From Paraburkholderia acidisoli (GTDB lineage: Bacteria > Pseudomonadota > Gammaproteobacteria > Burkholderiales > Burkholderiaceae): a stretch of 64,000 bases of DNA. The stretch is taken from NCBI RefSeq assembly GCF_009789675.1, contig NZ_CP046913.1:1178001-1242000 (forward strand). Direction: 5' to 3'. The position numbers and the translations under genes are program-made. The notes under the pieces were generated by a model that saw only the letters and a program-made list of their open reading frames with translations, was not told the origin of the DNA and did not search any database. This document shows, one piece after another, positions 35,256-49,710 of the stretch (within the stretch, counting starts at the first letter, position 1; each line of letters starts with the position of its first letter).

Positions 35256-38811
<3,556 letters not shown>

Positions 38812-47491: not shown

Positions 47492-48607
47492 TCAGGCGAG
47501 GTCGACGTTGCGGCCGCCTGCCTTGCCGCTCGATCCGCCACGCATCCCGCCACTCGTTTCGCTGCCCGCGTTCTGCGCGTCGCGCCCGTGCGCGGCGAGC
47601 GGCGCATGCGCGATCGCCGCGACGGTACCGCCCATGCGCAGATCGTGCGGCAGCGTGTGCGCGAGCGGTCCCACGTAATGTCCGCCGATGCGCGCCATCA
47701 ACCGCTGCCACGCGGCCCGGCCGATTTCCGCGTTGGGCGTGCCGATGCTCGCGAGCGGCGGCGCGAGCAGTTCGCTCACGGCGAGGCCGTCGAAGCCGAG
47801 TATCGACATGTCTTGCGGCACGCGCATGCGCGCACGGCGCAGGCCGCGCATCACCACCATCGCGAGCAGATCGTTGCTGCAGAAGAGGGCGGTCGGGCGC
47901 TGCGGGCCGTGGGTCAGATGCGCGAGCACGGCAGGCGCGAGTTCTTCGGCGTTGAAGTCGATTTCCAGCGCGGGCGCGGGCGTGAGGCCCGCCTGCTGCA
48001 TCGCGAGCGCGTAACCGGCGTGACGCTGACGCGCACGGTCGGAGGCCGCGAGCGTGCCGGCCAGCATGAGAATGCGCCGGTGGCCATGCGCGATCAGCAT
48101 GCGCACGCCGTCGTAGGCGGCTTGGTGGTTGTCGGCGGACACCGAGGGGCGGCGCTTCGTGTCGTTGTGCATGAGCACGTAAAGCGGGCCGTCGGCGTCG
48201 AGTTCGTCGAGCAGCGGATGCGTATCCGCGTCGGCGACCGTCAGGATCAGGCCTTCCACCCGTTGCGCGCGCAACGTTTCGATCGCATGGCGCTCGCGGT
48301 CGGCGTCGTATTGCGTCGTCATCAGCATGAGACGAAAGCCCTGCGCCGAAGCGAGATCGTCAATACCCTGCAGACATTCGGCGAACACCGGATTAGCGAG
48401 CGTGGGCAGCACCACGCCGATAAGGCGCGAGCGTTCGCCGCGCAACTGGCGGCCGAGCGGGTTGGGGCGGAACTTGAGCGCGTCGATGGCTTCGCGCACG
48501 CGCGCGAGCGTGACCGGATTGACGGTGTGCGGCGCGTTGATCGCCCGCGAGACGGTGGCGATCGAGAAGCCCGCGTGTGCGGCGACATCCTTGATGGTTG
48601 GCGTCAT
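47492..48607 (-). CDS. LacI-family transcriptional regulator
   Basis: 371 residues. N-terminal LacI helix-turn-helix and hinge (TIKDVAAHAGFSIATVSRAI, then ALKFRPNPLGRQLRGERS), followed by a periplasmic-binding-like effector domain (LIGVVLPTLANPVFAECLQG, ILGFDGLAVSELLAPPLASI). It lies 189 bp upstream of the ABC operon on the same strand and is the likely local regulator. A palindrome AAACGTTT sits just upstream of its own start, suggesting autoregulation. The C-terminal 30 residues are Gly/Ser-rich and disordered. Confidence 0.93.
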   Translation of the reverse strand: MTPTIKDVAAHAGFSIATVSRAINAPHTVNPVTLARVREAIDALKFRPNPLGRQLRGERSRLIGVVLPTLANPVFAECLQGIDDLASAQGFRLMLMTTQYDADRERHAIETLRAQRVEGLILTVADADTHPLLDELDADGPLYVLMHNDTKRRPSVSADNHQAAYDGVRMLIAHGHRRILMLAGTLAASDRARQRHAGYALAMQQAGLTPAPALEIDFNAEELAPAVLAHLTHGPQRPTALFCSNDLLAMVVMRGLRRARMRVPQDMSILGFDGLAVSELLAPPLASIGTPNAEIGRAAWQRLMARIGGHYVGPLAHTLPHDLRMGGTVAAIAHAPLAAHGRDAQNAGSETSGGMRGGSSGKAGGRNVDLA

Positions 48608-48643: not shown

Positions 48644-48742
48644 ATGCAGGGATTATCGGAACTGCATATGACCGCGCGATGACGCGGCGCGTGGCGCGGC
48701 CTTTGGCTGTGCGGTGCGCAATGGTAGAATCGCGTCCGCCCT

Positions 48743-49119
48743 GCCGGGGTGATGAAATTGGTAAACATAGCGGACTTAAAATATTGAGTGCCCGACCGGA
48801 AACGGCCGGTGCAGAACCCCTCAAATTCGGCGAAACCCCTGGGGCTTGCGACACGGCGCGCAAGTCGAACCCGAGGCAACGCCGAGCCAAGCCCGCCGTC
48901 GCGCACAGCGGCGGCGTGGAAGGTGTAGAGACTAGACGGGGGGCGCCTAAGGCGGCGCGCGGCGTGTACAACGCGGCGAGCGGCAACGGCGAAGGCATAG
49001 TCCAGCGCACGAACGCGTCACCTGCGAGCCTCGCAGCTGCGACGCGGCGTCGAAAGGCGTAGTGTGACGAAAATCCGCCGCCTCACGGCCTGCCGGTTCG
49101 AGCCCGGTCCCCGGCACCA
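48743..49119 (+). tRNA. tRNA-Leu(UAA) interrupted by a group I intron
   Basis: Exon 1 is 48743-48777 and exon 2 is 49070-49119. The spliced RNA is 85 nt. Acceptor GCCGGGG pairs with CCCCGGC, then A and an encoded CCA. Anticodon stem GCGGA/TCCGC holds loop CTTAAAA, anticodon UAA. A long variable arm typical of Leu and a T-stem with loop TTCGAGC are present. The D-loop contains AATTGGTAAACA. The break falls between U34 and A35 of the anticodon, the same site as in cyanobacterial and plastid tRNA-Leu(UAA). Confidence 0.95.
48778..49069 (+). ncRNA. Group I self-splicing intron (IC3-like)
   Basis: 292 nt with no room for a homing endonuclease. P1: exon ACUU pairs with GAGU (48786-48789), ending in the required U-G pair at the 5' splice site; the intron ends in G (49069). 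P2: ACCGG/CCGGT. P4: TTCGGCG with CGCCGAG, leading into the conserved GAGCCAAGCC. P7: GACTA (48930-48934) with TAGTC (48998-49002); the G-binding segment reads AGAGACTAGACGGG. From memory this order closely matches the Anabaena tRNA-Leu intron, where P7 is GACUC/GAGUC, so the last pair has changed with pairing kept. GAAA tetraloop-like turns occur near 48830 and 49052. Confidence 0.93.
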
Positions 49120-49177
49120 TTGTTGTTCAGTGAATCGGCGAAGCTGGCTTCGTGCGTTTCATTGTCTGGATTGCGCA

Positions 49178-49211
49178 AACCCGCGACAGCGTCACGCTTC
49201 GCGGGTTTTTT
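49178..49211 (+). terminator. Rho-independent terminator after tRNA-Leu
   Basis: AACCCGCGA (49178-49186) with TCGCGGGTT (49199-49207), followed by TTTT. Confidence 0.85.
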
Positions 49212-49710
49212 CATGGGCGCGCGAATGCCCGGCTCGTCACGCAAAGACACACGCGGAAAAGGGCGATCGGGAAGGAGAAAACGAAGGACGGCAACGTTTG
49301 GCGCGCTGGCCAAATGCGCGATCGAGACGGCCGGCGCGGCAAAGAGCGCGCTCCGGCGAACCTGCCGGACGTTCAGGGAAACGGAAAGCGATCAGCGCGT
49401 GCCGATTCGACCGGTGTGCGGATTGATCAGCTTGGCGAAACCGAACAAGGCTGCGATTGCGAAGGGGCAGGCAATGAAGAAAGCGGTCAACATGATGCGC
49501 ACCAGGTCAATACGTAACAAAATGTTTCGTCAGTGTAACCCGGCTATGTGAATTGGGTATCAGGGAGAACGACAACATAGTGTTGCGTTATCGCAAGATA
49601 ATCAAGGACCTGGCGGTGCGGGGAACGGCCGGAAAAGCCCGGCTGGCGGGGCGTGCGGAAGAAGTGACCGCTTACGGAGCGGAAAGAAGTCGTAATGGCG
49701 GGAAATAATT
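49212..49710. other. Intergenic region after tRNA-Leu
   Basis: About 500 bp. It may contain one very small minus-strand membrane-peptide frame (49392-49493). The rest shows no credible gene. Around 49510-49580 the base composition is less GC-rich than its surroundings. Confidence 0.5.
49392..49493 (-). CDS. Possible small membrane peptide
   Basis: 33 codons: MLTAFFIACPFAIAALFGFA, then KLINPHTGRIGTR. One clear hydrophobic helix followed by a basic tail. GTG at 49502 is an alternative start. No good Shine-Dalgarno is visible and no family is recognised. It may be chance. Confidence 0.25.
   Translation of the reverse strand: MLTAFFIACPFAIAALFGFAKLINPHTGRIGTR

Follow-up and report, generated by a model that had tools for sequence, protein, structure and literature searches.

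A predicted self-splicing group I intron divides the anticodon of the sole tRNA-Leu(UAA) gene detected in Paraburkholderia acidisoli

INTRODUCTION

How does Paraburkholderia acidisoli come to carry a tRNA-Leu(UAA) gene whose anticodon is cut in two, and what does the interruption mean for the reading of UUA codons? We addressed these questions for a gene lying in a 64,000-nucleotide stretch of contig NZ_CP046913.1 (positions 1,178,001 to 1,242,000), hereafter called the window. We conclude with high confidence that the insert is an IC3-like group I intron of the tRNA type, located between U34 and A35 of the only Leu(UAA) gene found, inherited mostly with its locus and predicted to be self-splicing. 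The intron is of a known kind, looks intact, and is probably old in this bacterial group; the surprise lies in copies carried by phages. The chief value of the locus is that it exposes an annotation gap, offers presence and absence of an intron within one genus, and provides a lead to phage tRNA introns.

RESULTS AND DISCUSSION

Anatomy of the gene and fold of the intron

The tRNA-Leu(UAA) gene occupies window positions 48743-49119, and an insert of 292 nt separates U34 from A35 in its anticodon; the tRNA reads as intact once 48778-49069 is omitted (Table 1). The first-pass annotation, made from the letters of the window, had claimed as much, and its coordinates, intron length, and insertion point were borne out both by the sequence and by ARAGORN, which in the mode that allows introns reports a tRNA-Leu(taa) interrupted after position 35 by a 292-nt intron. 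A sigma-70-like promoter match stops 12 nt 5' of the gene; one such match was found versus 0.1 expected from shuffled sequences, which is not evidence of function. Elsewhere in the window, Rfam places a TPP riboswitch at 37287-37416 on the minus strand (61.5 bits).

Table 1. Features of the interrupted tRNA-Leu(UAA) gene and its surroundings, in window coordinates
Feature	Position	Strand	Basis or observation
LacI-family regulator, upstream and divergent	47492-48607	-	Pfam PF00356 and PF00532
Sigma-70-like promoter match (TTGGCT, 16 nt, TAGAAT)	48703-48730	+	Consensus scan
5' exon of tRNA-Leu(UAA), to U34	48743-48777	+	ARAGORN intron mode
Group I (IC3-like) intron, 292 nt, last base G	48778-49069	+	ARAGORN intron mode, Rfam, fold test
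P1: exon 48774-48777 with guide sequence 48786-48789	48774-48789	+	U48777·G48786 at splice site
P2: 48792-48798 with 48803-48809, GAAA loop cap	48792-48809	+	4 of 7 pairs doubly changed; 88.8% of cells paired
P3: 48817-48822 with 48938-48943	48817-48943	+	100% of cells paired; one doubly changed pair (78 rows)
P4: 48827-48832 with 48880-48885	48827-48885	+	98.5% of cells paired; 0 double changes (78 rows)
P5: 48838-48841 with 48872 and 48874-48876	48838-48876	+	98.1% of cells paired; 0 double changes
P6: 48886-48888 with 48922-48924	48886-48924	+	Invariant in 78 rows: neither for nor against
P7, guanosine-binding helix: 48930-48934 (GACTA) with 48998-49002 (TAGTC)	48930-49002	+	Pseudoknotted with P3
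P8: 48944-48947 with 48988-48991	48944-48991	+	100% of cells paired; 2 of 4 pairs doubly changed
P9: 49047-49051 with 49056-49060, GAAA loop	49047-49060	+	99.7% of cells paired; 3 of 5 pairs doubly changed
3' exon, from A35, CCA encoded	49070-49119	+	Sequence reading, ARAGORN intron mode
Likely terminator of the tRNA transcript: GC-rich hairpin, then T run	49177-49212	+	By eye; hairpin loop exceeds the length permitted in the terminator scan

The group I landmarks that had been claimed for the insert are all present: a U·G pair at the 5' splice site, a terminal G, the joining segment GAGCCAAGCC, and AGAGACTAGACGG paired with TAGTCC. All 69 genus introns likewise end in G, their 3' ends having been located by a rule that demands it. 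Helices P1 to P9, which we assigned from the known anatomy of such introns, were examined in an alignment of 78 introns (the window copy, 68 genus relatives, six from Mycetohabitans and Vallotia, the sister introns L143 and L155, and L414, a carrier from another genus of the same family). They are paired in 97.8% of 3431 cells, and both partners have changed in 10 of 44 pairs; none of 500 shuffles reaches the observed value on any of five measures, and sliding the partners by 1 to 3 columns lowers pairing to 26-43%. The window copy has one A·C mismatch in P2.

The doubly changed pairs are unevenly spread, as P1, P4, P5, P6, and P7 show none among the 78 rows. Across a wider set of 129 introns, P3 (with four varying pairs), P4, P7, P8, and P9 vary in paired manner. 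P7, invariant in the 78, appears across groups as GACTA/TAGTC, GAGCA/TGCTC, and GACTC/GAGTC; most of the 129 introns came from a search pattern in which part of its 5' strand is fixed, so that for P7 only the free 3' strand counts as a test. The splice-site U·G occurs in 78 of 78 rows, 48 of them found with patterns that fix P1, and in 120 of the 126 rows of the wider set in which the search did not fix it, the other 6 having C-G. Both alignments contain a conserved P3-P8 core, the P3/P7 pseudoknot, and compensatory change. A tRNA host, GAAA loops on P2 and P9, and a compact core, which we take to be marks of subgroup IC3, are all present, a few relatives having another P9 loop.

By known group I chemistry, splicing in the cell would run as follows. 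The precursor tRNA would fold, and a guanosine bound in P7 would attack after U34, at the U·G pair of P1. The freed U34 would in turn attack the bond that follows the terminal G, so that U34 and A35 would be ligated and the UAA anticodon re-formed.

Detection by annotation tools

ARAGORN in its default mode reported only a tRNA-Pro in the 64 kb and missed the Leu(UAA) gene. Rfam at its curated (gathering) cut-offs returned nothing at the window gene and detected none of 14 interrupted loci. The Intron_gpI model (RF00028) does match the window gene at 29.9 bits (E = 1.1e-5 for 651 bases), a score that needed permissive filters and lies below the curated cut-off of 50 bits. With the same permissive filters, two relatives scored above that cut-off (L155, 57.2 bits; L256, 56.9 bits) and seven other loci scored 27.7-43.9 bits. 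The low score of the window gene and the missed loci count against the group I reading; a score above the cut-off marks what the model can detect rather than what defines such an intron. Because both searches miss the interrupted gene, genomes annotated with default ARAGORN or curated-threshold Rfam would seem to be without tRNA-Leu(UAA). Whole-gene folding energy is uninformative as evidence, the minimum-energy fold being no better than that of shuffled sequences (z = -1.33; 11 of 100 shuffles fold equally well).

Presence and absence within the genus

The interrupted form occurs in 69 of the 144 genus genomes, that of the window included, and the uninterrupted form in 74; no genome has both, and one has neither. 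That one, G158, exactly matches neither gene form, and another genome, G084, has two uninterrupted copies. The comparison covered 142 genomes and 143 gene copies, of which 69 are interrupted and 74, from 73 genomes, are not; G156 and G158 were left out. An upstream stretch of at least 600 nt, to which the LacI-family gene belongs, marks the locus across the genus and is common to 129 of the 143 copies. On the tree of these 129 rows, which omits the 14 copies without the common upstream stretch, presence and absence require 4 changes versus a shuffled mean of 43.2, and 63 of 66 intronless copies fall in one clade. Host trees likewise give few changes, with 2 on rpoB (34 genomes; G032 has no rpoB match and is not in the tree) and 2 on gyrB (30 genomes). 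The genus offers a natural experiment, in which a single gene occupies the same locus both with the intron and without it.

Change counts do not distinguish gain from loss. Early presence followed by a few precise losses is the simplest reading because Mycetohabitans, Vallotia, and the separate genus of L414 carry the intron, and from these outgroups we infer that absence is loss; the intron would probably have been in the ancestor of the group and been precisely lost a few times. On rpoB, five carriers are nested among the intronless genomes, G033 on a long branch, and this leaves room for loss and regain rather than losses alone. On gyrB, four of those five stand next to 11 intronless genomes, and G034 and G003 fall outside. 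The two trees disagree on where carriers G007, G004, G026, and G030 stand relative to the intronless genomes. The gyrB data reject a topology that unites every intronless genome in a single clade (AU p = 0.0018). We also dropped the idea that the intron of G007, G004, G026, and G030 was acquired from the G025/G027 group, which the tree of 129 introns described below had suggested, as a larger tree gave no resolved sisterhood and vertical descent fits too.

A currently mobile intron that repeatedly re-enters intronless alleles would account for the five nested carriers on rpoB, and it would fit both the closely similar sister-lineage introns found in beta- and gammaproteobacteria alike and the existence of a phage version bearing an HNH endonuclease (see below). 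Against this stand the small number of changes, mostly at one locus and with nearly all intronless copies in one locus-tree clade, and the window copy itself. The first-pass annotation had seen no endonuclease in it, and we agree: the two longest open reading frames overlapping the 292-nt intron matched 0 Pfam families, so it lacks the endonuclease gene that would mark a homing (mobile) group I intron. We consider present mobility unlikely and favor an endonuclease-free intron that would now be mostly inherited with its locus.

Wider surveys also recovered interrupted genes. At the level of the order, 47 of 349 genomes matched; ARAGORN called 19 of 30 loci examined interrupted, the window gene included (18 as tRNA-Leu(taa), and L427 labelled Phe), while of 18 further matches 14 were read by eye as uninterrupted genes and 4 look interrupted. 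At the level of the class, 30 of 369 genomes matched, and of 30 loci 18 were interrupted (16 Leu and 2 with other labels, the window gene included) and 12 were not. In one member of the genus, tRNA-Leu(CAA) too is interrupted between positions 34 and 35 by an intron of this type, the second in that genome (L061, contig G004:C68, 1355-1691, minus strand). This second intron groups with the other beta/gamma lineage, and a pattern search of the G004 genome found no uninterrupted Leu(CAA) gene. In all five aligned Leu(CAA) introns (L061, L106, L179, L186, L199), C-G replaces U·G at the 5' splice site.

Copies on plasmids and in endosymbionts

In PLSDB the interrupted gene occurs in 13 records, 9 from Mycetohabitans (megaplasmids) and 4 from Candidatus Vallotia (plasmids of 61-72 kb). 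The DNA had first been taken for betaproteobacterial from its letters, and these plasmid carriers of the closest relatives, both Burkholderiaceae, agree with that assignment. Splice ends and core are kept in all six plasmid records examined (L254, L255, and L256 from Vallotia; L257-L259 from Mycetohabitans). In these endosymbionts the interrupted tRNA-Leu(UAA) gene is retained on a secondary replicon. At these loci the PLSDB gene table is empty or gives unrelated coding sequences; it lists no RNA genes anywhere.

In eight genes of two Vallotia plasmids, UUA makes up 46 of 190 leucine codons. Because the intron is retained in Vallotia, whose plasmid genes use UUA often, our results suggest that it costs its host little. 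Should the plasmid copy be the sole UAA gene of Vallotia, the plasmid would be indispensable on that ground alone.

Lineage of the intron

A scan for the intron core, with one genome per species, found at least 120 stretches. Among the 121 matches listed, 109 were called as interrupted tRNAs, and 74 of these 109 are tRNA-Leu(UAA) after their ends were re-read. The 74 listed hosts comprise 34 alpha-, 9 beta-, and 9 gammaproteobacteria, 3 other Pseudomonadota, 14 cyanobacteria, 3 Acidobacteriota, 1 Bacteroidia, and 1 Thermoflexia, although labels taken from metagenome bins may reflect contamination. Other interrupted tRNAs among the matches listed include Arg(CCU), Met/Ile(CAU), Leu(CAA), Thr(UGU), and Thr(GGU). 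The related introns in tRNA-Thr (L157 and L162, UGU; L099 and L158, GGU) come from Massilia, Thiobacillus, and alphaproteobacteria. A Legionellaceae (Tatlockia) bin, L208, carries a cyanobacterial-type intron, by transfer or by contamination of the bin.

In a tree of 129 introns, which omits 12 loci with doubtful intron ends, the 22 genus introns, 3 from Mycetohabitans, and 3 from Vallotia form one clade (support 99/97). This clade adjoins introns from Rhodoferax and a Burkholderiales bin (96/93), within a beta/gamma group (96/95) that stands apart from the cyanobacteria. A joint clade of the genus introns with those of tRNA-Ile(CAU) is neither shown nor rejected (AU p = 0.536).

The same tRNA and the same 34/35 site raise the question of whether this is the cyanobacterial/plastid intron itself, present through old common descent or direct transfer. 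The shared position had been stated in the first-pass annotation and holds in the cyanobacterial loci examined, as does its statement that P7 differs by a single compensatory pair: GACTA/TAGTC here versus GACTC/GAGTC in 12 of 14 cyanobacterial rows, the other two having GACCC/GAGTC. Membership in the cyanobacterial lineage nevertheless appears very improbable, as the genus introns lie within the beta/gamma group, apart from all 14 cyanobacterial rows, and a tree constrained to unite the two is worse by 82 log units (AU p = 0.011), a comparison in which the cyanobacterial branch is long and its deep placement uncertain. The insertion site is common to both; the lineage, judged from these sequences, is not.

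The sole UAA gene and the use of UUA

The first-pass annotation had allowed that a separate intact tRNA-Leu(UAA) elsewhere would make this copy dispensable or a pseudogene. None was found by any of three routes. Among 66 tRNA matches in the genome, the 12 long ones were re-read, and their leucine anticodons were CAA, UAG, CAG (twice), and GAG (twice), with UAA absent; the interrupted gene matches the genome at one place; and a search pattern that would fit an uninterrupted gene for either Leu(UAA) or Leu(CAA) found only Leu(CAA). With an assembly completeness rating of 99.83%, an overlooked second UAA copy is unlikely.

UUA accounts for 1 of 1369 leucine codons in 28 genes predicted in the window by a simple open reading frame rule. 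Because the codon is this rare, the proposed dependence of UUA decoding on the splicing fidelity of the interrupted gene is best worded as something we infer, and a poorly spliced gene might be tolerable. Such extreme rarity is also a setting suited to regulated splicing, with the intron as a switch on the few UUA-containing genes, comparable to bldA, the tRNA-Leu(UAA) gene of Streptomyces, which is said to control UUA-containing genes. Given that 74 of 144 genus genomes manage without the intron, we regard such a switch as highly unlikely. Least probable of all is a defective tRNA or pseudogene whose insert no longer splices, UUA being read otherwise or, as its rarity in the window would allow, hardly ever: the 35-nt 5' exon is identical in 128 of 143 genus copies, the core helices are kept under compensatory change, the genome yielded no other UAA gene, and the intron keeps its splice ends and core in Vallotia, with its frequent UUA codons. 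The preferred reading is that of an intact-looking gene with a predicted self-splicing intron.

Copies in phages

The window gene matched none of 50,697 phage records; the intron-core pattern matched at least 120 IMG/VR contigs. Among the 120 contigs listed (L472-L591), 59 passed our rule for an interrupted tRNA-Leu(UAA); their introns span 185-414 nt (median 200), and 52 of these 59 have another ordinary tRNA gene in the stretch examined (30 in L525, 22 in L512). We compared ten neighboring proteins from five of these loci with PHROGs; seven matched phage families and three did not. The matches were a baseplate hub and a family of unknown function (L475), rIIA and rIIB (L485), an HNH endonuclease and a DNA ligase (L479), and a protease (L512, whose second protein had no match); neither protein of L560 matched.

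Named and large phages supply further cases. Agrobacterium phage Atu_ph07 (L592) has a 278-nt intron in a tRNA-Leu(UAA) gene that is absent from the annotation of the record. An uncultured 595-kb phage (L594) has a 700-nt intron in the same tRNA, with a 189-amino-acid open reading frame that matches PF01844 HNH (E = 8.4e-6). This HNH-bearing copy (L594, 866-1435, plus strand) is a possible mobile form. The tRNA-Leu(UAA) gene of an uncultured 735-kb phage (L595) is also interrupted by a group I intron. In cyanophage S-TIM5 the gene is uninterrupted; its exons match those of L475 at 96.6%, and the L475 gene comes after tRNA-Ile and tRNA-Met, in the same order as in S-TIM5.

We built a joint tree in which the 59 phage introns were cut to 22 representatives plus two named records and from which 14 of the 22 genus introns, five long rows, and the HNH-bearing phage copy were omitted. 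Of its 24 phage rows, 21 form one clade (100/99) with five bacterial Ile(CAU) rows, which sit on a long branch of their own, and one Bacteroidia bin. The remaining three fall elsewhere; one, L519, lies beside an Achromobacter intron and is probably host DNA next to a prophage.

Hausner et al. 2014 (PMC3984707) placed all phage introns then known in protein genes, despite the many phage tRNA genes. Our literature search found nothing on group I introns in phage tRNA genes; coverage of subscription papers was thin, and this is weak evidence. Because phages carry copies in tRNA-Leu(UAA) and bacterial Ile(CAU) introns fall among the phage introns, it is conceivable, if on balance doubtful, that phage introns seeded bacterial tRNA introns at several anticodons, the window intron being a settled, endonuclease-free descendant. 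The phage copies open the long-standing question of how tRNA introns spread to direct testing.

Comparison with known systems

Nothing on tRNA-Leu(UAA) introns of Burkholderiaceae was found in the literature, which is again weak evidence with subscription papers thinly covered. Outside the cyanobacteria, Vepritskiy and colleagues reportedly described an intron in tRNA-Leu(UAA) of a deep-subsurface gammaproteobacterium in 2002. It shares its host tRNA with the window intron; the comparison with it, as with the published Azoarcus and Agrobacterium introns, is by description and not letter by letter. BbgpI of Bartonella, in an alphaproteobacterial tRNA-Arg(CCU), is likewise an anticodon-loop group I intron in a tRNA gene that annotation missed, but its tRNA is a different one, and among the introns of alphaproteobacteria the seven Arg(CCU) rows group together in a clade of their own.

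The Azoarcus-type introns of tRNA-Ile(CAU) have the same P7 as the window intron in 5 of 5 betaproteobacterial rows. They differ in their tRNA and in their insertion, which follows the anticodon in 5 of 6 tree rows and is doubtful in L136. We read the CAU tRNAs that ARAGORN labels Met as Ile2; according to PMC8450103, Acidovorax and Burkholderia have group I introns in their tRNA-Ile2. The cyanobacterial/plastid trnL intron, widespread and old according to PMC4476775, has the host tRNA and the 34/35 site of the window intron but belongs to a separate clade and differs from it in P7.
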